Source of the DNA: a virus
IMG/VR virus record: IMGVR_UViG_3300022674_000006
Span: 1-25,628 of that record
Length of the DNA stretch: 25,628 nucleotides
Direction: 5' to 3' (one strand)
Shown piece after piece: positions 3,067-25,628 of the stretch. Positions within the stretch are counted from its first letter, which is position 1; every line of letters begins with the position of its first letter. Below the pieces are notes generated by a model, which worked only from the letters and a program-made list of their open reading frames with translations, made no database searches and was not told where the DNA came from. The position numbers and the translations under genes were made by a program.

Positions 3067-3375
3067 TTACGACAATAAACCAAAAAGGTTACGTAAATTC
3101 CTAACTTTTTTAGGTTTACCTGTTAGACCACTCTCTTCAGCAAGTAATTTCTTTTGGTTTTTAATTACTGTTAAGACTTTTTGAGATTCTCTTTCTCGTT
3201 GTCTACTTTCTCTTAATTTTTCAGTTAAATCAGAAACTTTAACTTTAAGCGTGTCAATTTCTTCCATCGCCATAGTTAAATTTTGTTTCAAACTCTTTTG
3301 GATATCTCTATTATCCTTAGCCAATTGATATAATTCGGCTTTATTATATTTGTTTAATGGTTTTCTTATGCTCAT
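3067..3375 (-). CDS. Coiled-coil hypothetical protein
   Basis: From the ATG at 3375 this gives 102 residues starting MSIRKPLNKYNKAELYQLA, which looks like a short N-terminal helix often seen before coiled coils. Residues about 20-75 are a strong heptad-like coiled coil (SLKQNLTMAMEEIDTLKVKV, DLTEKLRESRQRERESQKVL). The end is basic (GKPKKVRNLRNLFGLLS). It could be a scaffolding or DNA-associated small protein; the sequence does not say more. The chosen start avoids overlap with the phosphatase gene, which ends at 3380. Confidence 0.65.
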   Translation of the reverse strand: MSIRKPLNKYNKAELYQLAKDNRDIQKSLKQNLTMAMEEIDTLKVKVSDLTEKLRESRQRERESQKVLTVIKNQKKLLAEESGLTGKPKKVRNLRNLFGLLS

Positions 3376-4082: not shown

Positions 4083-5124
4083 TTATCCACACTTGCTATA
4101 ACCACAACTTTTGCAGTTTAAGCATCCTTCTTCACGCACCAATTCTGATGAACACTCTGGGCATTTCTCAGATTGATGTTTATCGCTTGCGTATTTATTT
4201 AATACTCTCGCAATACTTTTACTAAATGCTGTAATATCACCTTCTGATTTTCTCAGTTGTTCAACAGCAAAATCAATAGCACCTCCATGTCTAAGCCCAA
4301 AACTAAGTAATCTAGTAATTACAGCTTCTTCTTTAGTCATTTTAGATGTTATATCTTCAATAAGTAAGTCATCTTTGATTTGTAAATTGTATTTTGACTT
4401 ACTAACTTTTATTAAATCACCAACTGATGGTTTAATATTCCATTCATTGGGTATTGCAAATACTTCATATGGGTTACCATGATAAAGTCCTACAATCACA
4501 ACGAACTCCTCTCCTCTATATTTTGTAATATGAATATCACAAGATAAAGATTTAGGGCGTTTAGGGGCATCTTTATATTTAAATGTCTCCTTAACCTCTG
4601 GATTTGTAACTAAAACTCCACTTCTAGAGCCGTCACGGTATACAGTTATACCTTTTAATCCAAGATTCCATGCTTTCAAATATATATCAGACACTTCTTT
4701 TTCTGATACTGTACTTGGTAAATTTATAGTTGAACTAATACTATGTGTAATATACTTTTGTAATATACTTTGTAATTCCACACGTTTAAGCCAATCTATG
4801 TCATTAGCTGTACTACCATACCAAGGCGAATCTTCAAAAAACGCTGTTAGTTGTTTATTATCTAATTCAGATATCCATTTATTAAAATGATTATCATCAT
4901 CAAAAGAAATTCCATAATCTGGAGAGCTTTTTTTAATCCACTCTTTAAATTTAGGATGTAATACAGGATATTCAGTCCATGAATCACCATTATCATCAAC
5001 AAAATTGACTTTAACATTTTCATCATTCGGATTAACCTTTTTACGTCTAGTATAAAACGGAGCAAATAGAGGCTCTATACCGCTAGTTGTTTGTGTTAAT
5101 ATACTAACTGTCCCAGTAGGAGCG
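4083..5124 (-). CDS. nrdJ: Class II ribonucleotide reductase, exon 2 (C-terminal part)
   Basis: This is the second exon of the split reductase. The frame opens directly after the intron with A-P-T-G-T (the conserved substrate-phosphate-binding segment APTGTVSI), then SSGIEP-like TSGIEPLFAPFY, and continues to the stop at 4083. Further in are KGITVYRDGSRSG, typical of adenosylcobalamin-dependent NrdJ proteins. The C-terminus has the CPEC...CLNCKSCGYSKCG cysteine cluster, the redox tail that re-reduces the active site. Joined to 6042-7504 it gives 834 residues, a normal NrdJ size. Without the intron an apparent start exists at 5195, but its first 24 residues come from intron sequence and are not reductase-like. 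Confidence 0.93.
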
Positions 5125-6041
5125 CAAATGTTATGTATGCCGTTTAAACATACTCTCAGAGTTTCCTCTGAGTATCGGACTATATCATCATCCATTAAGG
5201 ATGTTGGATTTTCGTGGGAAGGGTTATTGTTAGGCTCACCTTCCTAGTCTCTGAACCTTCTAATCTCTTTTAACCTAAGATTAGCTTGGCTGCTGATTGG
5301 CATGATTAATCACCAAATCACATAATTTTATAAAATAATCTTCATCATAATTTCTCTTCATAAAGTTTATATCTCTATGAACCCATTGAACATTTCCTTC
5401 AATATAACCAATGTTAGAATTTATCCTATCTAGAGATGCGTTCCACCCCTTATAGTTTAAATTTCCTTTATTGACAGTCATATTTGGTTGTTTTAATGTT
5501 ATATCTAATCCTGATAATGCACATTTATGACCTTGTTTAATCATCAATGTCCATAAATTATCAGTAGTCATATAGCCATCATCAAACTCAATATTTCTCT
5601 TTAAAGCATTTTGACTTATCTTTAATAATTGTGTTTTACTTAAATCACCAGTACCTTGATGACCAGTACTATAACCTTTATGTGCTATTTTTTTAGATTT
5701 AACATTAGCTAAATACTTTTCTTTATTAGAACAAGCTCTACATTTTGTTGCTTGTTTAGATTTAAGTATATCAGCCCTTATTAAATGTTCTGTGTTACAT
5801 AGAGTACATTCTACTTTGATATGTCCTCTATTACGATTTGATTTATCTTTTACCATATATACGCCTTCATCTATAACTTTATAGTTTCCAAACATGGTAT
5901 CTTTTTTTATGTTAATTCTTTTTCCCATTTTGTGCTTTTACTTCTTATATACGAAGCAAACCCAAAAAGGTTTAATTAATTTTAGCTTTCCAGCAATTTA
6001 TCCAATTTTTCAATACACATTACTGTGTAAAGCCACCATTG
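5125..6041 (-). ncRNA. Group I intron (IA2-like) in the ribonucleotide reductase gene, with HNH ORF
   Basis: The intron is 917 bases. The exon ends in ACCAU and the intron ends in G at 5125, and joining them restores T-I-A-P-T-G-T with the frame intact. P1 can form between exon CCAU and GUGG with a U-G pair at the 5' splice site. A P2 hairpin with a GUAA tetraloop lies at 6014-6031. P7 is formed by GACUA (5245-5249) and UAGUC (5178-5182) within GAUGAUAUAGUCC, like T4 td/nrdB introns. P9 has a GAAA tetraloop (5155-5172). The strand between GCUGG and CAGC gives P4. The HNH gene at 5281-5928 is nested between the 5' elements and P7. Confidence 0.92.
5281..5928 (-). CDS. HNH homing endonuclease in the reductase intron
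   Basis: This 215-residue protein starts MGKRINIKKDTMFGNY. A CxxC-x(n)-CxxC zinc-binding pair (CTLCNTEH and KCRACSNK, about residues 40-68) precedes a C-terminal HNH-type domain. In that domain GHKCALSGLDI, ASLDRINSNIGYIEGNVQWVHRDIN and the following FMKRNY match phage HNH enzymes of the kind found in group I introns. It nicks or cuts the intronless reductase allele so that the intron can be copied in. The last codons (NQQPS and stop) coincide with the intron's P4/Q-type element (CAGC...AAGCUAA). The coding end therefore doubles as catalytic RNA. The promoter or start signal is not obvious. Confidence 0.88.
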   Translation of the reverse strand: MGKRINIKKDTMFGNYKVIDEGVYMVKDKSNRNRGHIKVECTLCNTEHLIRADILKSKQATKCRACSNKEKYLANVKSKKIAHKGYSTGHQGTGDLSKTQLLKISQNALKRNIEFDDGYMTTDNLWTLMIKQGHKCALSGLDITLKQPNMTVNKGNLNYKGWNASLDRINSNIGYIEGNVQWVHRDINFMKRNYDEDYFIKLCDLVINHANQQPS

Positions 6042-7504
6042 ATGGTGCTCCAACTTACATTCCTACGCCCATATCTTTCCATTCTAGCATATTGTTGTGG
6101 AAACTCTTGTTGTAACATAGCATAAAAAGGATTATCCTCTCTATTTCTGTCCCAACCTTTAAAGGTTCCTCTTAGAATTGCTAAATCTGTAGTACAATCT
6201 AATTCAGACTCTAATTTAGCCTTCATTATTCCTTTGGCATATCTTAAAGCTAAATCAGAATCATATCCTACACCTAACATAGCAAATACATCTCCTAAAC
6301 CCGTAAACCCTAATCCAGTTCTTCTTGAAGCTGAAGCAGTTTCACGGACTTTATTCCATAAATTAAATTCCACACGCTTCAATTCCTCTTCTTCGGGGTC
6401 ATTGTATATTTTTTGGAGTATTCTATCAATGTGTTCTAATTCTAAATCAATTAAATCATCAGATAATCTCATTGCTTGATAATTAACTTGATAAAATTCA
6501 TTAAAATCAAAATATGCCTCTTTTGTAAATGGATTTTTAACAAAAGCTGTTAAATTTACTGCAATTAATCTACATGCGTCATAAGGTTGCATAGCAATCT
6601 CACTGCATGGGTTTGTTGTAACTTGTTTAAATTGAGGATAACATCCATCTGGTGAATAATTAACCATATTATCCCAAAACATTAATCCTGGTTCTGCTAC
6701 ACTATGTGCAGATTTAATAATTTCATTCCAAACATTAGTTGCACTAGCTGATTGCACAAGCAACTCATTTCCTTGAGAAAAACTTTGTACATAATCAGCA
6801 TCTTCAGTTACTGCATTCATGAAATCATCGTTAAGTTTTACTGAGATATTAGCTCCAGTTACTTGAGTTAAATCTCTTTTCATTTTAACAAAACTTAATA
6901 TATCTGGATGCGTTACATCCATACTAAGCATTAATGCTCCTCTACGACCATTTTGAGCTACCTCTCGTGTCGTATTAGAGAATCTATGCATGAATGATGC
7001 CGCTCCAGTTGAACTCTTTGCTACATTGCTTGTAGGAGCTCCTGCTGGGCGTAATGTAGATAAATCAATACCTACTCCACCTCTTCGTTTCATCAACTGA
7101 GCCATTTCCTCGTCTTTTTGGAATATACCTCCATACGAATCAACTGGTTGACCTACTACGAAACAGTTAGATAAAGACCCTATTGTGCCTGAACCTAATT
7201 GACTCATTATACTTCCTTGAGGAACAATATACTTAAAGTCTTTAAACAATAAATATATAACTTCTTCTGTTAAAGTTGGTGAGATTTTACCATATTGTGA
7301 CAGCGCATTATATTTTACAGCTGTTGTATCCAAGTTTGAATATTTAGCCTCAACTCTTGCGAATTGTTTAGCCATACGTTTATGCATTTGGTCATAATGA
7401 CTTTCATCTTCTAATGCATACTTACTTTTCCAAACGGAGATAGCTAATTCATCTCCATTAAACATTTCTCTATCTACTATTTTCTCTTCTTCACGGTTAT
7501 CCAT
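6042..7504 (-). CDS. nrdJ: Class II (adenosylcobalamin) ribonucleotide reductase, exon 1
   Basis: Exon 1 encodes residues 1-487 plus two bases of the next codon. It makes deoxyribonucleotides for phage DNA synthesis. Key elements are SNCFVVG (C114, redox cysteine), GGVGIDLSTLRP and RRGALMLSMDVTHPD in the barrel, TTNPCSEI (N298 to E302; C300 is the expected thiyl radical) and DACRL (C311, redox partner). RRNVSW ends the exon. A start at 7504 overlaps RusA by 28 bases; an alternative at 7465 (MFNGDELAISVWKSKY) would not overlap and also leaves the conserved part intact. Class II enzymes work with or without oxygen. There is no separate small subunit gene, which fits class II. Confidence 0.95.
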
Positions 7505-10148: not shown

Positions 10149-10397
10149 CTTTTACATCTATATATTTCTATATAGCTCGGACTATGTCTTCACCCTACTT
10201 TCACATATAGGGGTTGAGCGCTCGTGTCACTTTACTGTCCGTTCTGGACTCCATGTGTTAGTCTCTGCACTTTCCTATTGTTCCCAATAGGCTTAGCTCA
10301 AAATTGTCATATATGATTAGATACTTTTCATACTTAGAGTTCTTTTGAATTCACTCAATTTTACATATAGATTGCTCTATAAGGTCGCTATTATGTT
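10149..10397 (-). ncRNA. Small ORF-less group I intron in the amidoligase gene
   Basis: This intron is about 249 bases. The P7 strands are GACUA (10259-10263) and AUAGUC (10180-10185) in GUGAAGACAUAGUCC, close to T4-type introns. A P6 hairpin (10274-10291, CCUAUU and AAUAGG) and a P9 hairpin with a GAAA tetraloop (10158-10175) are clear. P4-like pairing exists between AAAAUUG and CAAUUUU. P1 forms between exon GUCGU and GCGAC in the intron. The exact ends are uncertain by one to a few bases: the preferred join (10398 with 10148) places the last exon base opposite an A instead of the usual G. Joining at 10154 is also in frame and adds two residues. Confidence 0.9.
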
Positions 10398-11439
10398 AAC
10401 GACTAGAAATATCCCATTTATGGGTTCTGGTTTTATCAGCTATATGGGTTATATAATTTCCTTTATATTCATATTTACAAACTGAATTATTGTTAAGAAA
10501 TGTTAAAATACTATCAAAATCTTTATGAGACTTTAATGGTTGTGTATAATTCTTTCTCTTAATCTTATTCACATTTGTAAACTTATAGTAAGGAAACATT
10601 CTATAAACTTGGTCTTGAATATTAACCATTAATGTATAAAATTTAGTAATAAATTCCTTGTTTGTTGGTACATTACCAATATGGCAATGCAAGGAATTTG
10701 TTACATCAAACTCACAAGTGTTTTTTAAAGTTTCAACAATTGGTATTAAGCTTGATATTTGTTTAAATGGTTTTGTCACATACTCATAGTTTCTAGTAGA
10801 ACCATCTCTAGCAGGAACAAATCCTTGCTCTAACATTGTTTTACCAGGTACTACACCAGAACATGTTTCAATTTCAACACCATAAGAATAACCTAAACTT
10901 AAATCATCTATAGCAGTTTTCTTTTTTTCTCTCCATTTAGCAAACATGTATTTATTAAATTCATAACCATATTGTAAATTTTTATATAAAGAACTGTATT
11001 CACGACTTCTAAGTATGCTGTCATCTTCGTAATAAAGCCTAGTGTCTTTATCATACCTCATTGTTTTAGCTAAATCCTTAGTAATAAAACTAACATTTCC
11101 ACCTTTAAAAACACCCTCTTCCCATTTATGATTAAAATATTTAGTAACAAGCTGTCTTCCGACATCCTTTATTATATATCGTCCTGGGGCTTTAGGCACT
11201 TTTCTTAAATGTTGAGCTAATCTTAATATTTGAGGAGGTGGGCTAAAATCAGCGACATATTTTTTGATATCTAAATCATAAAATAAATTTTTATCATCTT
11301 TTTTTAGCCATTTTCTAACTCCATTATGCATAACATCGAAGATGTCAACATTTATTTCAAAGTATTCACCTTTTAGCTTATAACAGTTAGACCGTAGAGC
11401 TTTTTCTCCATTAAATTTTACTACAGTATAATCTTTCAT
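10398..11439 (-). CDS. Amidoligase_2-like protein, exon 1
   Basis: The exon encodes 347 residues from MKDYTVVKFNGEKALRSN. An N-terminal region of about 180 residues has no recognised motif. The catalytic part follows: GYSYGVEIETCSG (residues 183-195, with the two metal-binding glutamates of the glutamine synthetase-like fold in VEIET), a second acid-containing strand YEYVTKP (218-224), and NSLHCHIGN (248-256, histidine-containing strand). These are typical of Amidoligase_2 proteins, which join a carboxyl group to an amine using ATP. The exon ends HKWDISSR, and the exon 2 protein continues KCFYDNKLYYWVNL. It overlaps the GATase gene by 4 bases, so the two may be coupled. The full product is about 469 residues. 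Confidence 0.88.
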
Positions 11440-13454
11440 ATTACTAATTTGTTTTCGATAAATTTACTAATATCTTCAATTAATATCTCAGCTGATTGAT
11501 TTCCTTGAAATTGTTGAAGTTGTTTAATAGTATCACTACATGAATCCATAAATTCTAATGCTACATCTCTAACTTTCAAACTTTCTTCTTCAGTTTCAAT
11601 TTCACCAAAAGGAAGTTCGTCATCGTTATTAGTATCATCGACATCTTCATCTCTATATAGTCTATCTAAAAAATCAGCATAAGCTTCATCATCATCAAGT
11701 TGAGCCCTTTTAGTTTTGATACATTTTACATTAGAATATCTAAACATATTTTCATCATTTGATATTAATTCTATACCATCAAAATGATATGTAAATAATT
11801 CTGTAACTAAAATATTAAGGTCATCTACATTTGTAACAATGTCGCCAACAGCAATTCCTAATTTATTAGTTTCACCAGGGTCAGTTCCGCTAGGCAATAC
11901 AATTACGCTTTTATTAAAATCTAGTTTAGATTGATTACTTACTTCATCATCTGTTAAATCTATATCATATAAAAAACCGTAATTGAATATATACGTACCT
12001 CTATTATAAAATAAAGGTTCATATTCTCCATGGTATTCTGCTAATTCTCTTTTACAAAATACTAAATTACAATAATCATCCACATAATAAGGAATAGGTT
12101 GGTCAGAATATTGAGATAATTCTAATGCAAAATCTTCATTGCCAAATTCTAATTCTAATTCACGTAATAAATAAGAAAAGTCTTGGTATGATAAATTTAC
12201 ATCATCATCTACAAGAATACCTTGAATAAAAGTATATTGTTTAGCATTAGCATCAGGATAACCTTCTTCGTTTAATCTCAAATGCCCATTTGCTGGTATA
12301 TTCGCATACCAATATCTACCTTTATTGTAATAAACTTTATTTCTTTCCATTAAATCAAGGTCAACTTCTTCATTTTGAATTTGACCATCTTCTAATGGGT
12401 TAAAAAATCCATCACCAGAATGAGTATCTACAGTCATTAATTTTTCAAATACTATAGCTTTATATTTCTCATTGTATTCGTCTAAATCGTCTATACTATC
12501 AATATTCGTTATATCCTTATCCTTTAATGCAGGGGAGTGATTATTGCAATCATCATAACAATCTTCATCATAAATATTATAACGTCTATTTATCATGTCA
12601 GCTAATGTTCCTTTATCATTAAGATGATTTTTATTGCCACCACTTAACTTCTTCAAACCACTCCCCGAATGCTTTTTTAGCCTTAGCTGTACGGGTTGGT
12701 CTTTACGAAGTAATTTATCAGTTTGCAATTGTTTTCTCTCAATATCCATAACATGTTTTATTTCACAATTATCACCAATTGAGATTGTAAACACCTTATT
12801 ATGAGGAACTTCTTCTATAGCTTCAAGTTCTTTATCATCTAAAGTTACATTTTCAAGCTGTTCTTTTAAAGATGCAAAATAAAGACCTTCTTTCATTTCT
12901 ACAACATGTAAAGGTCTTTCTATAAATATATCTTTAGCATCTTCTGCTCTCTTAGACGCTCCCTTATAAAAATACATAGTATTTGGGTCATCCAAGTATA
13001 CAAACATAAGGGCAGCTGCTCCACGATAATCTTCTAATACTCCAAATTCTTTTTTTTCTAAGATTTTAGCTAGTATTATACTATCTGTATCATCATGTTC
13101 AGCTTTAACTCCATATTTTTTAGCCAAATCTAGTTTATTATAAATAGTACCGTTATGTACCATTACAATATTACCAAATTCTATTGGTTGTGCCCCTTTC
13201 ATTGTCACGGGATAACCAAATGTAGGTTGCCTAGTATGACCTAAAAATACTGACTTACGGTTTAATTTTCTCCAATTAACATTTTGAGTAAATTCTTGAG
13301 CCTTAATGATGTCTTTTATAACTCCACTATTATTATTCCAAAGTCCTGTTGACTGCTTGCCTCTTTCCTCATTATATATTAATAATGATTTAAAGGCCAA
13401 TAAATTAATTCCTGTTTTACTTGTTTTAGGCACAAAGGCCGCTAATCCACACAT
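11436..13454 (-). CDS. Class II glutamine amidotransferase with long acidic C-terminal extension
   Basis: The 672-residue protein starts MCGLAAF, so removal of Met1 leaves Cys2 as the N-terminal nucleophile of an Ntn hydrolase. The amidotransferase domain covers about residues 1-230. It carries the expected RGKQSTG (31-37), GHTRQPTFG (72-80), HNGTI (100-104) and DTDS (122-125) residues for glutamine binding. It releases ammonia from glutamine for transfer to another substrate. The remaining 430 or so residues are unusually acidic (for example DDNNDDELPFGEIETEEES) and show no known synthase domain. This differs from GlmS and asparagine synthetase, whose partner domains are recognisable. In context, the ammonia acceptor is probably a product of the neighbouring ligases. 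Confidence 0.9.
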   Translation of the reverse strand: MCGLAAFVPKTSKTGINLLAFKSLLIYNEERGKQSTGLWNNNSGVIKDIIKAQEFTQNVNWRKLNRKSVFLGHTRQPTFGYPVTMKGAQPIEFGNIVMVHNGTIYNKLDLAKKYGVKAEHDDTDSIILAKILEKKEFGVLEDYRGAAALMFVYLDDPNTMYFYKGASKRAEDAKDIFIERPLHVVEMKEGLYFASLKEQLENVTLDDKELEAIEEVPHNKVFTISIGDNCEIKHVMDIERKQLQTDKLLRKDQPVQLRLKKHSGSGLKKLSGGNKNHLNDKGTLADMINRRYNIYDEDCYDDCNNHSPALKDKDITNIDSIDDLDEYNEKYKAIVFEKLMTVDTHSGDGFFNPLEDGQIQNEEVDLDLMERNKVYYNKGRYWYANIPANGHLRLNEEGYPDANAKQYTFIQGILVDDDVNLSYQDFSYLLRELELEFGNEDFALELSQYSDQPIPYYVDDYCNLVFCKRELAEYHGEYEPLFYNRGTYIFNYGFLYDIDLTDDEVSNQSKLDFNKSVIVLPSGTDPGETNKLGIAVGDIVTNVDDLNILVTELFTYHFDGIELISNDENMFRYSNVKCIKTKRAQLDDDEAYADFLDRLYRDEDVDDTNNDDELPFGEIETEEESLKVRDVALEFMDSCSDTIKQLQQFQGNQSAEILIEDISKFIENKLVI

Positions 13455-13456
13455 AT

Positions 13457-14236
13457 TTATTTTTTTAAGTTTGTGTTAATAATTTTATTAGCTAATGATT
13501 TATTGTAAGTATTAATACAAGTAATCACATCAGCTTCCAATTCTGTTGGGAGTTTAATCCCTAAATTAAATAATTCAAATGCTTTTTCAACTCCAGCATA
13601 TACACTACGCATATACTTCTCATCGAAAATCCAATAATTACTTAATGTTCGGTATTCAAATCCAAAATCTTTCATTCGGTATGCTCCTGCTTTCCCATAC
13701 ATTTTTCTTCTGTTAACATCTTTGTCATCTAATACTGATTGTACACCTATAGTGTAATCTAATAGTTTAATGAGCTCTATGCTATCATCTTCGTTATGTC
13801 CATCATAACCTACATGTATGTGTCCAGCAGCACTACGAAAGTTCCCATTCGCATCTGGAGATGGGTTTTCTTCTCTGGTATATGCTGTAAAATCTGGAAT
13901 ACATCCAAACGTCCTTGCTATTTCCGAATCTAAATATTTTGGTTTAAATTCAGCATAAGCTACGTCAGAAATATCACATTTTTTACTTTGCATATCTGTT
14001 TTAATATAATCTAGAAAGTCTACGTGTTCTGATACAAATGATTCTACATCTAATACGGGTAAAGTATTAAATTCAACCATTACATTATCTACTAAAACAC
14101 TTCTACCTTCATCATCAATCGGTACGGGACACCATTTGTCTCCCTGTATAAGTTCTATCGCTGGAAAGAACTCTAATTTTCCATTAATCTTTTTTGTAAC
14201 GAAAAGTTCTGGGTCTGACCCTAATGTAAAGTTCAT
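13457..14236 (-). CDS. COOH-NH2 ligase type 2 (phage phiEco32-like amidoligase)
   Basis: The start at 14236 (MNFTLGSDPELFVTKK) directly follows the stop at 14238 of the gene upstream and gives 259 residues. The family signatures are visible in order: GSDPELF (6-12), VEFNT (54-58), AGHIHVGYDG (137-146), GKAGAYR (181-187) and FEYRTLSNYW (193-202). The conserved glutamates and histidines correspond to the metal and ATP site of the glutamine synthetase-like fold. This family was described from phage phiEco32 and relatives and is predicted to form amide bonds between amino acids or peptides. It sits in the same operon as another amidoligase, an ATP-grasp ligase, an amidotransferase and a cyclotransferase. 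Confidence 0.92.
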   Translation of the reverse strand: MNFTLGSDPELFVTKKINGKLEFFPAIELIQGDKWCPVPIDDEGRSVLVDNVMVEFNTLPVLDVESFVSEHVDFLDYIKTDMQSKKCDISDVAYAEFKPKYLDSEIARTFGCIPDFTAYTREENPSPDANGNFRSAAGHIHVGYDGHNEDDSIELIKLLDYTIGVQSVLDDKDVNRRKMYGKAGAYRMKDFGFEYRTLSNYWIFDEKYMRSVYAGVEKAFELFNLGIKLPTELEADVITCINTYNKSLANKIINTNLKK

Positions 14237-14237
14237 G

Positions 14238-15116
14238 TTAAATAAAATTAAATCGTGATTTATTATATAAATTAATATCATATAAAGAGTCTGCTATAAG
14301 AACGTTTTTGTTGGATTCTTTTATAATCCAATAATAATTATTTATTATTAAATTACTAGAATCAATAAACCCTTCATTGTCTATACATTTAACATATGTT
14401 TTATCACTAATGTTATTATGTTTAGTTGATAAAATATTATAAACCTCTAACCATTTTCTCTGCCTAACTAAACTTTTTAGTTTTTTTATCGAAACAGGAT
14501 GAGGTCTCATAATATTAAATGTATTTAAATTACTATGAAGTTTAACTTTCATTCTCCTATTTAAAAATTCTATAGGAGTTATATAACTTATTTCTTCATA
14601 ATTGTGCAATTGTATTGGAGACATATCATTAAATGAAAAATTGAATAAATGTCCTAATTGAAATATCTCCCAATTGTCTAAATGAGATAAGTCTTTTCTT
14701 TTTCTTAAATTTAGTATTCTTCTTGGTAAATGTCTATAATGAGATGAATATAAATATCTAATCATACTTAAAATAAGTAGATTATAATAATTAGCCTCTG
14801 TTTCTTTAGACGTAAATCTAAGTATGACACACCTTTCATCTGAATCATGCATCGTCACATTAAATCCAAATACATTAATGAAATCAATCCATTTTTGTAT
14901 AAAAGATTTACTTCTATTTTGCAAAGGAAGATAATCAAAATGAACATCTATATCTATTATTTTACCTATTATATGTTCAGGATTTAACACTATAGCTTTA
15001 CCTACTATAAAATTACAACATTCTACAGTAGTTTTAGCCATTGATTTTATTTGAACCCCATCTTTATATATAGATTTTATAGTAATAGTTGTATGTCTTG
15101 TAGTTTCATCTTTCAT
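14238..15116 (-). CDS. Unknown 292-residue protein in the amide-bond operon
   Basis: The protein begins MKDETTRHTTITIKSIYKDG. The first 130 residues look alpha/beta (VHFDYLPLQNRSKSF, ERCVILRFTSKE). The middle is basic and helical (RHLPRRILNLRKRKDLS). The last 55 residues (KTYVKCIDNEGFIDSSNLIINNYYWIIKESNKNVL...KSRF) resemble the small SH3-like end domain found on many phage proteins, with the KCIDNxG and later K-SRF pattern. Its start overlaps the ATP-grasp stop (ATGA) and its stop nearly abuts the ligase start. Conserved location would imply a partner or substrate role, such as carrying the modified group. I cannot assign a function. Confidence 0.75.
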   Translation of the reverse strand: MKDETTRHTTITIKSIYKDGVQIKSMAKTTVECCNFIVGKAIVLNPEHIIGKIIDIDVHFDYLPLQNRSKSFIQKWIDFINVFGFNVTMHDSDERCVILRFTSKETEANYYNLLILSMIRYLYSSHYRHLPRRILNLRKRKDLSHLDNWEIFQLGHLFNFSFNDMSPIQLHNYEEISYITPIEFLNRRMKVKLHSNLNTFNIMRPHPVSIKKLKSLVRQRKWLEVYNILSTKHNNISDKTYVKCIDNEGFIDSSNLIINNYYWIIKESNKNVLIADSLYDINLYNKSRFNFI

Positions 15117-16027
15117 TTTTTAGCTAAATTATTGTAACTTGTTATAAAGTCATGTAAATTATTTTCATGAGTATTCCCTATACCATATCTTCTTGTGTAA
15201 GCGTCATGGTCAAATGGAATATTACAATACTTAGATATAGCTTCTGTATATCTTCTATGTGTTGTAGTTCCTCTTTTCATACCAGGAGCAGTATTAACTT
15301 CTAGTACATAAAATTCATCATCTTTAGTTTTTACCAAATCAATAGCTGCAAAATCTAAATCTAAGGCTTTTATAGCATTTAATGAAATACTTATCATATC
15401 ATAAAAATAGTTTCCATCTTTATCCCATAAGGTTAAATCACCTCTTGTAAATGACCAACCATTCATTAGATTCTTAACTTCTTTATTTGCTACAATTATA
15501 CCTTTATTTCGCATTCTGTCTTTAGACATTTGGCGTTTTTGAACAATATCAATAACTTCACCATCAAATACGTGAACTCTATATTCTATATCAGTGTCTA
15601 ACATAGACGTATAAAGATTACATTTAACCAATTGGTCTTCTGCTCTAGCTATAACAATACCTTTACCTTTTGAGGCTCTTGTTAAAGTTCTACAGAAAAT
15701 ATTTTCGGATAAATGGAATAGAGATTTTGCATTTTCCAAATCTGTTGCGAAAAATGGTACATTAACTCCATTTTTCCCTAATATAGTTAAACAATCAACT
15801 TTAGAAGATGCTTTTCTAACAGCTTCTGATTTATTCAAAATATCTACATTTTTTCCTTCTAATACAGGAATGTCTCCTTGAAATCCCCAATTTACAACTA
15901 CATCATTCAATCTAGGTTTATAGTTTCTATCGGGAAATATTCTTAAAGTATTAAAATATTTTGAAATTGTTTTTGCGGATAATGAATTACGTTTATACGG
16001 TAATATCATTGGTCTTTTCCTATTCAT
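15113..16027 (-). CDS. ATP-grasp ligase (RimK-like)
   Basis: This is a 304-residue ATP-grasp protein. It has the lysine-containing loop SKGKGIVIA (119-127) for nucleotide binding, the central strand EYRVHVFDGEVID (148-160) followed by VQKRQM, and the metal-binding C-terminal part DFAAIDLV (225-232) with EVNTAPGM (243-250). The acidic and asparagine residues of EVNTAPG coordinate magnesium. Such enzymes activate a carboxyl group as acyl phosphate and join it to an amine or thiol. Related members add amino acids to proteins (RimK) or make peptides. The substrate here is unknown. It is preceded by the cyclotransferase gene and followed by the overlapping unknown gene. Confidence 0.9.
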   Translation of the reverse strand: MNRKRPMILPYKRNSLSAKTISKYFNTLRIFPDRNYKPRLNDVVVNWGFQGDIPVLEGKNVDILNKSEAVRKASSKVDCLTILGKNGVNVPFFATDLENAKSLFHLSENIFCRTLTRASKGKGIVIARAEDQLVKCNLYTSMLDTDIEYRVHVFDGEVIDIVQKRQMSKDRMRNKGIIVANKEVKNLMNGWSFTRGDLTLWDKDGNYFYDMISISLNAIKALDLDFAAIDLVKTKDDEFYVLEVNTAPGMKRGTTTHRRYTEAISKYCNIPFDHDAYTRRYGIGNTHENNLHDFITSYNNLAKK

Positions 16028-16040
16028 TGTTTTTAATTTA

Positions 16041-16469
16041 TTAATTTATATTAAATTCTGATATGTATGTTCTCCAATTTATTATTCCATCCGCTTCTAT
16101 AGGTTTTGTATGAGGGTCTCTATTGAAAATATAAATATAGGCATCCCCAAATTTTGTTTCAATAGTTTTTTCTCTATACAGCCCATCATTTTGTCCAGGA
16201 GTTACTCCTTCTAACAATCTTATAAACTTCAAACATTCTTCTGATACAGCATATACTTCTGTGTATATCTGATTTCTAGGTTCTAAGGTTACTCCAGGAA
16301 ATGCTCCAAGGTCATACATAGAAAATTCATCTTTAGTGATGTCTTTTCCTAAGAATACCGCTTCTCCTGTTTTTATAAACTTTCCTATTATTCTCTCATG
16401 ATTATGTAAACCTTTTAATAATGAACCATATACTGCTACTCTTTGATTTAAATTATCCATAGTTTTCAA
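16041..16469 (-). CDS. Gamma-glutamylcyclotransferase-like protein
   Basis: The 142-residue protein (or 139 from the third-codon-later ATG) has the GGCT/AIG2 fold. The substrate loop is VAVYGSLLKGLHN (11-23), the middle part has FPGVTLEP, and the predicted catalytic glutamate is E87 in RLLEGVTPG. The C-terminal strand DAYIYIFN and then the INWRTYI end fit the family. Members cleave gamma-glutamyl-amine linkages with formation of 5-oxoproline. With ligases next to it, it may remove or edit gamma-linked amino acids. The start overlaps the end of the preceding gene by 17 bases. Confidence 0.88.
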   Translation of the reverse strand: MKTMDNLNQRVAVYGSLLKGLHNHERIIGKFIKTGEAVFLGKDITKDEFSMYDLGAFPGVTLEPRNQIYTEVYAVSEECLKFIRLLEGVTPGQNDGLYREKTIETKFGDAYIYIFNRDPHTKPIEADGIINWRTYISEFNIN

Positions 16470-19168: not shown

Positions 19169-19476
19169 CTATTTTAAATAATACTTCCTGTATCTTTTTA
19201 GATTATCCATATCAAATTTCGTTGGGTCTTTAGGTAATTCAAATAATTCCCCAGTCTCACCCAAAAATAGTAATGGAAACACACCAAAAGCAGCTCCATG
19301 TCTATTCTTTACAATATTCAATATCAATAACTTATTACCAAATCCTATTTCAGTGTGACCTCCGTTAACAATATCTGCAACTTGAAATCCAAAGAACTTC
19401 GCATGTCGTTCTCTACTAGGACTCATCAAGCCTAATACAACGTTAGCTGCATCAAACATTCCCGCATTACCTTCTA
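19169..19476 (-). CDS. DnaB/gp4-type replicative helicase, exon 2
   Basis: The C-terminal exon continues the helicase after the intron as EGNAGMFDAANVVLGLMSP, then RERHAKFFGFQVADIVNGG and KLLILNIVKNRHGAAFGV. Such KNRxG residues are the arginine-finger-containing end of DnaB-type helicases (usual form KNRxG). Joining 20789 to 19476 gives 371 residues with no frame disruption, reading DFRDG-L-EGNAGM. Starting at 19459 would lose part of the protein. A short positively charged end (YRKYYLK) closes it. Confidence 0.88.
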
Positions 19477-19489
19477 CTATGGTCGTTAA

Positions 19490-19981
19490 TCATAATACGT
19501 TCTCTTGTATTTTAAAACAATCTTTTTTAGATTTAATCCATCTATTAATAGTACCTCTATTAACATTTAGTTTAACTCCAGCATCAGTAACACTATCATA
19601 AACAATCCCTTTTATGGAGCATTTATGAGCATTTCCTGATATTTTATCATACATTGGATTATTTTTACCCGATTTATCTGATATATTCCATCCAAATAAA
19701 TCCATATTATAACCTTTATTATATGCTTCAAATTTATCAATATAAAATTGCTCTAATTGATATGCTTCTTTTTTATTAGAAGTAATTATTGTATCAATTT
19801 CAATTAATTCAAAATTTTCAATACCATGCTTTCTTATAGCCTGATGAAAATTAGATGTTGAGCCGAACCTTACCTTTCTTAAATGAGAAAGGTTACGTTT
19901 ATGTAAAGTTTCAGAGGTTAAACCTATGTATACTTTATTATTGATTAAATTTTTATATTTATATATTATGTATGTTTTCAT
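19490..19981 (-). CDS. GIY-YIG homing endonuclease with NUMOD1-like C-terminus
   Basis: This 163-residue protein has the GIY-YIG catalytic core: TYIIYKYKNLINNKVYIGLTS (Y4-I and Y18-I-G), R29 in LHKRNLSHL, then the glutamate in QLEQFYIDKFE. The C-terminal segment GIVYDSVTDAGVKLNVNRGTINRWI resembles a NUMOD1/helix-turn-helix DNA-binding module. It cleaves an intronless target so the intron can be copied. The sequence lies 3' of the P9 element, an unusual place, because most such genes are looped out of an earlier peripheral stem. No Shine-Dalgarno sequence is present. Confidence 0.9.
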   Translation of the reverse strand: MKTYIIYKYKNLINNKVYIGLTSETLHKRNLSHLRKVRFGSTSNFHQAIRKHGIENFELIEIDTIITSNKKEAYQLEQFYIDKFEAYNKGYNMDLFGWNISDKSGKNNPMYDKISGNAHKCSIKGIVYDSVTDAGVKLNVNRGTINRWIKSKKDCFKIQENVL

Positions 19982-20105
19982 GTTTTATTATATACTTATG
20001 AACTGCTACATATTACTATGCAGATGAGACTATATCTTCACCCTAATAGGGCGGCTAGTGTTTCGAACCACTTGGTTCTACTTCCTTTCGGAATAGTCGT
20101 TACAC

Positions 20106-20678
20106 TCATTTCTGAAATTTACGATAGTTAGGTTTGGACTTTAATGCCCTTACGGCCTCATAACTTACACCTGTTGCTTTAACTATCTTTTCATATATAC
20201 CATTATGAATTCTTCCTGAAGCATGCTTAGGAGCTTCCTTTAGCATTTTTAACACTTCTTCTATTTTATCATTAGAATATTTAGACCAATTACAGTCTTC
20301 ACCATATTTAGGTTTATTTAACTCTGTTTTATAAGCATGGGTTTGATTTTCACTATTGGTACACCATTCTAAATTAGAATAATGATTATTAGTTTTATCT
20401 CCATCTATATGATTGACTTGTAATCTTTCTCCTATTCTTTCTACAAAATACAAAGCTACTAATCTATGTACTGTTTTAGTCACATGTTGACCTTTATAAT
20501 TAAACTGTACATATTTATAACCTTTATGATTTAATCTTTGTGTTAAAAGCTTACCCTTCATTGGTACTATATGACCTTGTGGGTATTTACGCTCTCTATC
20601 TTTACTTCTTACATTTCCATAGTTACTTACCTCGTAAGCACCATCGAACAATTCTATTGTTTTATATATTTCTTCCAT
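20106..20678 (-). CDS. NUMOD4-HNH homing endonuclease in the helicase intron
   Basis: This 190-residue protein starts MEEIYKTIELFDGAYEVSNYGNVRSKDRE, the NUMOD4 signature. The HNH core is QVNHIDGDKTNNHYSNLEWCTNSENQTHA (about residues 86-114), with the two histidines and two asparagines expected. The C-terminal third (EEVLKMLKEAPKHASGRIH, KIVKATGVSYEAVRALK) is a helix-turn-helix-like DNA-binding part. It probably nicks the intronless helicase gene. It is placed between P4 elements and P7, the usual site for a group I intron ORF. It ends about 6 bases from the GUGUAACGACUA P7 strand. Confidence 0.9.
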   Translation of the reverse strand: MEEIYKTIELFDGAYEVSNYGNVRSKDRERKYPQGHIVPMKGKLLTQRLNHKGYKYVQFNYKGQHVTKTVHRLVALYFVERIGERLQVNHIDGDKTNNHYSNLEWCTNSENQTHAYKTELNKPKYGEDCNWSKYSNDKIEEVLKMLKEAPKHASGRIHNGIYEKIVKATGVSYEAVRALKSKPNYRKFQK

Positions 20679-20788
20679 ATTATTAGCTCGGTATTAACCT
20701 TCTCTTATATTACTATATACGAATGTAGGTTGTCCACCGAATTAACTAGCTTTTCGATACACATTACTGTGTAAAGGGGCCAATTTTA

Positions 20789-21596
20789 ACCCGTCTCTAA
20801 AATCAGAGTCTTTTGGTAATATATCGTCTAATTTAACCCTGTCTGTAGAGTTAAATCCCCGATTGAGCTGTTGTGTTACTACAAATGTGAAAAGGTATCT
20901 ATTTCTAGCCTTAATCATGACATCAGCCATATCATCTATCATTTGTTTTCTACTTTGACCACTTATACATTTTACTAATGATATATGGTCAACTACTATA
21001 ATAGTAACTTGTGATGGGTCTTTCTCTGTATATGATTTAAATACAGGTAATATTTTACCATCTTTTGTTTTTATATTTCGCTTCTCTATTTCACCATATT
21101 CCTCTGCTAATTTATTAACATAAGTACTAAAACTTATATGATTTAATGACATATCTAATATGGTTACTGCCTCTTCAAAGTCTTTAACATAGTCTTCAAA
21201 GTCTTTTGACTCTAATAGAGCATTGATATACCCATCTAGAGTATGCTCTGTCCAATGACTTAATAAATACTGCGCATCGACTAGTAATCCATGATATCTA
21301 TGTATCCATCTAGAAGCCAATTCTGCGATTATTTGACTCTGTGGCATCTCAAGCGAGAAGTAATGTATCTTTAACGCATACTTCTTTCCTTTCAATCTCC
21401 AATCATCAAATACATTGAATACAAATAGTTCATTTGCAGTTTTTGATTTACCTGCTCCTGAACCTCCACCTATTAAATATAAGCGTTCCTTCCTCACTCC
21501 TGGAATAAAATTGTTAAATTTTGTTAAATTAAAAGGTATTCCCTTATTTAACCCTAACATTCCAGCGTCTTTCTCTTCTTTAAACTTTTTTAACAT
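20789..21596 (-). CDS. DnaB/gp4-type replicative helicase, exon 1
   Basis: The exon encodes 269 residues plus one base. It unwinds DNA as a ring at the replication fork. Walker A is GGGSGAGKS (43-51), Walker B ends in IIVVDHISLV (199-208, D203 first), and TQQLNRGF (241-248) corresponds to the glutamine-containing coupling motif (usual QLxR). There is no N-terminal primase or collar domain, so the protein is a helicase core only, with primase encoded separately. The exon ends DSDFRDG, part of the DFRxS/G loop near DNA-binding residues. Intron removal is needed for the last 100 residues. Confidence 0.93.
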
Positions 21597-25015: not shown

Positions 25016-25232
25016 AAATTAATCTTGATTCATCATATTGTCTTCGTACTTTTTCTTCAAAAAATATTTGAATCCATTTTAGTCTAAGTTTTTCACCCAT
25101 AGCAACTAATTTATGATTCCTTAAATATTTATAAGCATTATTTAAATGGTCGTCGTCCATACTAGTTACATGAATTTTTTCTCCATTACTAGTAATCCAT
25201 ATTTTTCTTTCAGCATAAGTAGTAGCTTTCAT
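25002..25232 (-). CDS. Small hypothetical protein, 76 residues
   Basis: It starts MKATTYAERKIWITSNGEKIHVTSM and has a basic middle part (YKYLRNHKLVAMGEKLRLKWIQIFFEEKVRRQY). The WITSNGEKIHVT segment is a short beta hairpin. Its start overlaps the stop of the gene at 25229-25420 (ATGA). The second half looks like a charged helix. No family is recognised; early host-takeover proteins often have this size. Confidence 0.6.
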   Translation of the reverse strand: MKATTYAERKIWITSNGEKIHVTSMDDDHLNNAYKYLRNHKLVAMGEKLRLKWIQIFFEEKVRRQYDESRLIYEIY

Positions 25233-25420
25233 GATATAATTTGCATATTTCCTATACCATTTGCTTCGGCATAGATAAATTTGTTATTTAATTCTATCAT
25301 TTCTCTTATATCCTTTAACCTTAAATAATAATAAGGCTTTTCTGGATTTTTATGAGTTAACAATACTATATCTGGTGTTAATACAGGTGACCATTTATAG
25401 TCAGGGTAGTGCATTTGCAT
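25229..25420 (-). CDS. Small hypothetical protein, 63 residues, first gene of the leftward array
   Basis: The first leftward gene in the window begins MQMHYPDYKWSPVLTPDIVLL and continues KNPEKPYYYLRLKDIREMIELNNKFIYAEANGIG. Its ATG at 25420 lies 14 bases from the large hairpin at 25434-25541, so the hairpin would be in the leader of the leftward transcript. A second in-frame ATG lies two codons later. No family is recognised. Confidence 0.6.
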   Translation of the reverse strand: MQMHYPDYKWSPVLTPDIVLLTHKNPEKPYYYLRLKDIREMIELNNKFIYAEANGIGNMQIIS

Positions 25421-25433
25421 GAATAAAAATTCT

Positions 25434-25541
25434 GTAACCGTTCACAGAGCACCGCATCTGCTTTGTTGTCGGGCACTTGAAGTACAAAAGTACGTCTACG
25501 CGCCCGACACCTTGCATCTGCGGCACCCTGTAAACGGATAC
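25434..25541 (-). repeat. 108-base symmetrical inverted repeat, likely leader RNA hairpin
   Basis: The two halves are near-perfect inverted repeats centred at 25487.5, with an apical GTAC-AAAA-GTAC. The outer arm pairs about 23 positions, then come short internal loops and TGTCGGGC with GCCCGACA. Four of the non-matching positions in the outer arm (at 25443, 25448, 25450 and 25451 on the left side) become G-U wobbles only if the RNA is read leftward. This favours function as RNA from the minus strand. It sits between divergent genes and is richer in GC than the rest. A DNA-level role as operator, origin or recombination site is possible. Confidence 0.8.
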
Positions 25542-25568
25542 AAAATTTTAATCAAAAACTTAGAAAAA

Positions 25569-25628
25569 ATGGGAGGAAAAATGAAAGGATCGTTGGCCGT
25601 CAAATTAAATCAACCCGAACCGATCGAT
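25569..25628 (+). CDS. Start of a plus-strand gene (partial)
   Basis: Only the first 16 to 20 codons are inside the window: MGGKMKGSLAVKLNQPEPID, with starts at 25569 or 25581. GGGAGG with an A/T spacer precedes the second ATG, so the 25581 start has a strong Shine-Dalgarno sequence; this differs from the leftward genes. The base composition is also more even. No family can be assigned from so few residues. Confidence 0.5.
   Translation, partial: MGGKMKGSLAVKLNQPEPID

Follow-up and report, generated by a model that had tools for sequence, protein, structure and literature searches.

A hairpin between divergent phage genes

Near the right end of a viral record of 25,628 nucleotides (this whole stretch is the window that we analyzed), a large hairpin lies between genes that point away from each other, and its pairing favors one of the two possible RNAs. 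What put the hairpin there, and which process keeps one strand foldable? The original prediction was that a 108-base inverted repeat, located between a leftward gene array and a plus-strand gene, had been selected as a leader RNA for the first leftward genes.

The structure itself is as predicted. An imperfect palindrome of 108 nt occupies exactly 25434-25541 and is found once in the record. The leftward RNA of this region has a predicted folding energy of -67 kcal/mol (z -10.3; 0 of 200 shuffled sequences were as good), and the rightward RNA reaches -45.6 kcal/mol (z -5.7). If position i of the leftward RNA pairs with position 109-i, then the outer arm has exactly four wobble pairs, U10-G99, G15-U94, U17-G92, and G18-U91. 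These are the four transition differences that had been pointed out: all are G-U in the leftward RNA and A-C in the rightward RNA. Besides the wobbles, the outer arm has one mismatch in the leftward RNA (U4-U105). The reported contrast in GC content also holds, with 0.53 in the hairpin versus about 0.24-0.36 across the window.

The 5' arm of the leftward RNA, GTATCCGTTTACAGGGTGCCGCAGATGC (25514-25541, minus strand), consists of an IS66-like terminus and a conserved core, as judged from its sequence and from an alignment of related copies (A1, described below). The 3' arm is GCAGATGCGGTGCTCTGTGAACGGTTAC (25434-25461, minus strand); its outer end, read inward, is GTAACCGTTCACAGAG, which resembles the outer end of bacterial elements. 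The motif GCAGATGC is present in both arms in the same orientation, which leads to a tandem G-A / A-G internal loop in the leftward RNA. The GA of this loop is at 25517-25518 on the 5' side and at 25457-25458 on the 3' side (both on the minus strand).

The neighboring genes are also arranged as described. On the left is the first leftward ORF (25229-25420, minus strand), which encodes 63 amino acids and has no family match; its ATG is 13 nt from the element, which lies upstream of it. On the right is a plus-strand gene that begins with MKGSLAVKLNQPEPID (25581-25628) and runs off the record. It has a Shine-Dalgarno-like GGGAGG in front (GGGAGG and ATG at 25571-25583). The original prediction missed an 8-bp direct repeat that adjoins the hairpin on both sides: AAAATTCT at 25426-25433 and AAAATTTT at 25542-25549.

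We propose that the hairpin is a non-autonomous, palindromic, MITE-like mobile element, from a high-copy family of Desulfobacterota with IS66-type ends, that was inserted in trans into the phage. We put the probability of this explanation at roughly 0.88. A transposase acting in trans, most likely from an IS66-family element in a host cell, would have inserted the element into the AT-rich gap that separates the divergent phage genes, with a duplication of 8 bp at the target. The strand bias in G-U pairs, the tandem G-A loop, and the tandem wobbles would then be inherited properties of the element.

Close relatives of the hairpin are dispersed in Desulfobacterota

The window copy is 102/108 identical (94%) to a dispersed repeat of the Desulfobacteraceae MAG_Ve_Sed_19, which contains at least 40 copies. 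The repeat in this genome is 158 bp long: an outer end (GTAACCGTTCACAGGG) is followed by about 34 bp and then by the 108-bp hairpin, which terminates in CCCTGTGAACGCTTAC. A scan of bacterial genomes for the core gave at least 120 stretches; among the matches listed, all but about 16 (which we judged to be chance matches from their sequences and folds) belong to one repeat family in Desulfobacterota MAGs. Using a covariance model, which gives the window copy a score of 101 bits, we found relatives in 44 of 395 Desulfobacterota genomes. The highest count, at least 150 copies, is from G343, whose complete chromosome (contig C1) is 3.1 Mb. The bacterial copies, which thus fill genomes of sulfate reducers, are at dispersed sites and their flanks are unrelated to one another. 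Like MITEs, the element is short (108-158 bp), it has inversely repeated ends, and we saw no conserved ORF within it.

Weaker relatives that keep the core, with other flanks, are found in two other phyla: in 7 of 398 genomes from the phylum of a Photobacterium (Pseudomonadota), and in 6 of 199 genomes from the phylum of a Phycisphaeraceae MAG (Planctomycetota), with up to at least 18 copies per genome. Even the weakest of these (33-40 bits) are likely to be homologous to the element. Neither the window copy nor its diverse relatives, including those from Pseudomonadota and Planctomycetota, had any meaningful match in Rfam.

In several of the Pseudomonadota relatives (L239-L243, L246, L247, and L249), the shared sequence also extends into the flanks, by about 30-45 bp on the upstream side, from AGGGYGTGTTGATC, and by more than 110 bp on the downstream side, which includes an apparent second hairpin that often follows CT. 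This looks like a further family of long non-coding repeats that is built around this core.

Target-site duplications and IS66-type ends

If the repeat is mobile, insertions should be flanked by duplications of the target. Among the full bacterial elements, 37 of 53 have 8-bp target-site duplications that match at 7/8 or 8/8 positions. When we shuffled the flanks among copies, 2.3% matched at 7/8 or better. The duplication around the window copy (AAAATTCT and AAAATTTT) matches at 7/8. Two 8-mers at the same distance match this well at 0.05% of positions in the window, or at 0.17% of AT-rich ones.

The IS66 family is described as having terminal repeats that begin with GTAAGCG and direct repeats of 8 bp (PMC11946415). 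Most of the type A copies from bacteria have GTAAGCG ends, and the ends of the window copy are GTAACCG and GTATCCG. One genome with the repeat, G009, also has an IS66-family element (L148; PF03050) with an 8/8 duplication, and one side of this element is bounded by GTACCCATTCACGGGG. The repeat in L056 has exactly this outer end, and the repeats of G009 itself differ from it by one base (GTACCCGTTCACGGGG). Elsewhere in the same order, IS66 transposase genes (PF03050) have GTAACTATTCAGC or GTAAATATTCGG as their boundaries, again with 8/8 duplications, and the GTAACTATTCAGC ends resemble the second subfamily of the repeat. The outer parts of the two subfamilies resemble the two kinds of IS66 ends. 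These similarities suggest that an IS66 transposase moves the repeat. We did not find an IS66 gene in MAG_Ve_Sed_19, which is fragmented and has the closest copies among the matches listed, or in most of the other MAGs.

We infer that the phage was once inside a cell with copies of the family, and that this host, where the insertion would have occurred, was most likely a desulfobacterium.

Where a duplication is clear, most insertions measure about 158 bp and include an extra outer end at a distance of 50 bp. The window copy, however, is a bare 108-bp hairpin, and the case for its mobilization in this form depends on a single 7/8 duplication. Also, because the record ends 87 bp to the right of the hairpin and because repeats often break assemblies, there is a slight chance of a chimeric join on the right side of the element.

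The strand bias is found across the family

Three of the four wobble pairs in the window copy are already present in bacterial copies, and only G15-U94 is particular to the window copy. We collected 63 distinct copies that match the core pattern (alignment A1). In each of the 63, the better fold is that of the sense strand (mean -67.5 versus -52.5 kcal/mol), changes on both sides are seen at 23 of 35 pairs, and the outer arm has 66 G-U versus 17 A-C cells. Because the search pattern biases the conservation of the core in this set, we relied instead on hits from the covariance model (A2). Among 33 aligned copies collected with the model, whose hits also favor G-U over A-C slightly, G-U pairs exceed A-C pairs in 30 copies and the reverse is true in 1 (30 of 31 informative copies; 107 versus 17 cells). 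If the three recurrent wobble pairs are removed, the same copies give 51 versus 17 cells and 20 versus 4 copies (p = 0.0015). At the internal loop, 28 of 36 model hits retain the GA on the 5' side, and 32 of 36 retain it on the 3' side.

Because G-U outnumbers A-C across the family, the strand-specific constraint is a property of the element that was inherited with the repeat family, instead of being shaped as a phage leader. The original prediction of selection on a leader RNA was therefore supported as to a strand-specific constraint but not as to a leader of phage genes, as the hairpin is an inserted bacterial repeat. If we had to guess, we would say that the sense strand serves as an RNA that is functional or protected.

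Some copies have arms that are unlike IS66 ends and yet are paired, for example CGCAAACCTTCGCCA...TGGCGAAGGTTTGCA and AAAAAAATCGCGTCA...TGACGCGATTTTTTC. A plain MITE model does not predict such arms. Across the 11 copies of this kind, an average of 12.6 of 14 outer positions are paired, versus 8.7 after an exchange of arms among copies. This pairing could come from selection on the fold or from template switching that keeps restoring the palindrome. The symmetry of the whole family might then reflect DNA mechanics, namely template switching, or the folding of single-stranded DNA during transposition, which would select one strand. The paired arms fit this explanation, and single-stranded DNA tolerates G-T better than A-C. 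However, correction by template switching would erase the conserved wobbles and the tandem G-A mismatches, and both have been retained, which speaks for selection on the fold. In G343, 50 copies are on the plus strand and 53 are on the minus strand, among 103 copies listed, and their orientations do not fit the replichores. This lack of a replication-strand bias weakens the explanation from single-stranded DNA. We consider DNA mechanics to be a serious contender for the symmetry, with somewhat less than even odds.

Several copies in G343 have completely different, fully complementary outer arms.

Does the hairpin act as a leader in the phage?

A cis-acting leader is expected always to precede a gene and to be in the same sense as that gene. 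Around the bacterial copies, where genes were predicted as long ORFs only, the next downstream gene is in sense for just 20 of 55 intergenic copies and is antisense for the other 35. The orientation of the downstream gene is likewise mixed in the complete genome of G343. Many of the intergenic copies have their start about 10 bp or less from a stop codon. In the phage, we found no intrinsic terminator (a GC-rich stem followed by a T-run) at 25200-25628, and a promoter scan of the record ahead of the leftward ORF gave nothing promoter-like in the leftward direction above the level expected by chance.

We also searched for the hairpin in other phages. DNA similarity searches of phage and plasmid records did not find anything that resembles it, and the viral contigs that we scanned with the type A and type B cores gave no match. 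When we scanned viral contigs for the paired core, 19 of 20 matches looked like chance, and one was a true but divergent relative (L019; 58 bits). Searches for relatives of the phage with the nearest protein or with Sak4 led to no homologous locus; they returned only L002 and remote phages.

Given these results, it is very improbable that the hairpin evolved in the phage as a leader RNA for the first leftward genes, with a 5' hairpin that stabilizes or regulates the early transcript. The leftward RNA does fold better, and the element is only 13 nt upstream of a leftward ORF. But the same element is found in many bacterial genomes with target-site duplications, it is in sense with the downstream gene at a minority of sites, the scans with type A and B cores found it in no viral contig, and the record has no leftward promoter-like site upstream of it. 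Together with the wobbles that were already present in bacterial copies, these observations largely refute a phage leader. The original prediction had itself named a match to a recombination site as evidence against a leader, and the match to a mobile element is essentially that. Leftward transcripts that start to the right of the element would begin with a very stable hairpin, which is possibly a side effect of the insertion.

An intermediate explanation is that a transposed element has since been put to use by the phage, as a domesticated leader, as protection for the 5' end of an mRNA, or as an insulator between divergent operons. The window copy has stayed intact and paired: compared to the bacterial copies, it has C-G in place of one G-C pair and G-U in place of another. 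Also, the element was placed where it would precede the leftward genes. On the other hand, six is a small number of differences, the C-G pair matches the outer ends of other copies and is therefore possibly inherited, and no related phage with the same locus turned up in the nearest-protein and Sak4 searches. We view domestication as unlikely, but less so than a leader of phage origin. An insertion of a bacterial element, as in our main proposal, accounts for this conspicuous hairpin without calling for any new biology in the phage. It also provides a clue to the host of this phage (contact with Desulfobacterota) and an example of a phage that carries a bacterial MITE-like repeat.

As to L019, we first guessed an actinobacterial host from its GC content, but we dropped this idea. 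Its genes look, by eye, like those of a Mu-like phage. A second repeated hairpin (GAAGGGGGACAYGGTTCCCCTTCG) lies beside the divergent relative in L019 and is found again 2.9 kb away (343-385 and 3235-3276). L002 is a nearly identical viral contig of 7 kb, with a protein that is identical to the window's Sak4-like protein; it ends short of the hairpin.

Comparison to known repeats

Like the element, IS66 insertion sequences have GTAA(G/C)CG ends and 8-bp duplications (PMC11946415 and our measurements). Unlike them, the element has no coding capacity and is mostly one long hairpin, and some copies have other arms. The IS66 elements that we checked lack the conserved strand-biased core. In a literature search, we found no paper that describes an IS66-ended repeat with this sequence.

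REP sequences and BIMEs, which are moved by RAYTs, are also high-copy intergenic palindromes that tend to be at gene ends. A REP measures 20-40 bp and has a GTAG or CGTC tag (PMC3733652), whereas the element has a length of 108-158 bp, GTAA ends, and 8-bp duplications. ERIC, Correia/NEMIS, and the hairpin MITEs of Thiomargarita are large intergenic hairpins of 70-300 bp that are non-coding (PMC3733652, PMC4853749), but their sequences and ends are different. The Thiomargarita MITEs have TATA-type ends and, according to the authors, no IS partner (PMC4853749). Like the element, the multicopy families reported from Geobacter, which is related to Desulfobacterota, are intergenic palindromes (PMC2996986). 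Integron attC sites are the core sites of gene-cassette arrays in one orientation; the copies of the element that we noticed in passing were single and intergenic, and they had both orientations.

Taken further, the data hint at an undescribed and abundant mobile family with a constant strand-specific core, GCAGATGC-RAGGC ... AACRMAG-GCAGATGC, whose arms and ends have been exchanged between lineages (IS66-type in Desulfobacterota, and different flanks in the two other phyla, Pseudomonadota and Planctomycetota). Here, the core would act as RNA, and phages would pick up the element and could spread it. We offer this broader scheme tentatively and consider it more doubtful than not. The family is absent from Rfam despite having at least 150 copies in a 3.1-Mb chromosome, its pairing is strand-biased, and its arms are complementary even where the transposon ends have been lost. 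With these features, the family can be used to test whether miniature elements carry a selected RNA. Why the sense strand of a miniature element stays foldable is a question for the repeat family.

Other features of the phage record

Two leftward genes in the window seem to be interrupted. A ribonucleotide-reductase-like gene (identified by eye; 4083-7504, minus strand) is seemingly split into ORFs at 6020-7504 and 4083-5195, with an HNH-like endonuclease ORF between them (5281-5928) and a group I intron match from Rfam at 5155-5455 (54 bits). Similarly, at 19169-21596 (minus strand), a DnaB-like helicase ORF (20742-21596; PF03796) seemingly continues at 19169-19459. Between these parts are HNH-like and GIY-YIG-like ORFs (by eye) and a sub-threshold match to a group I intron (20006-20190; 35 bits, E = 6.5e-7).

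Finally, a run of ORFs at 10396-16469 (minus strand) includes, by eye, amidoligase-like, class II glutamine amidotransferase-like, ATP-grasp-like, and gamma-glutamylcyclotransferase-like proteins. This run is possibly a cassette for peptide or surface modification.
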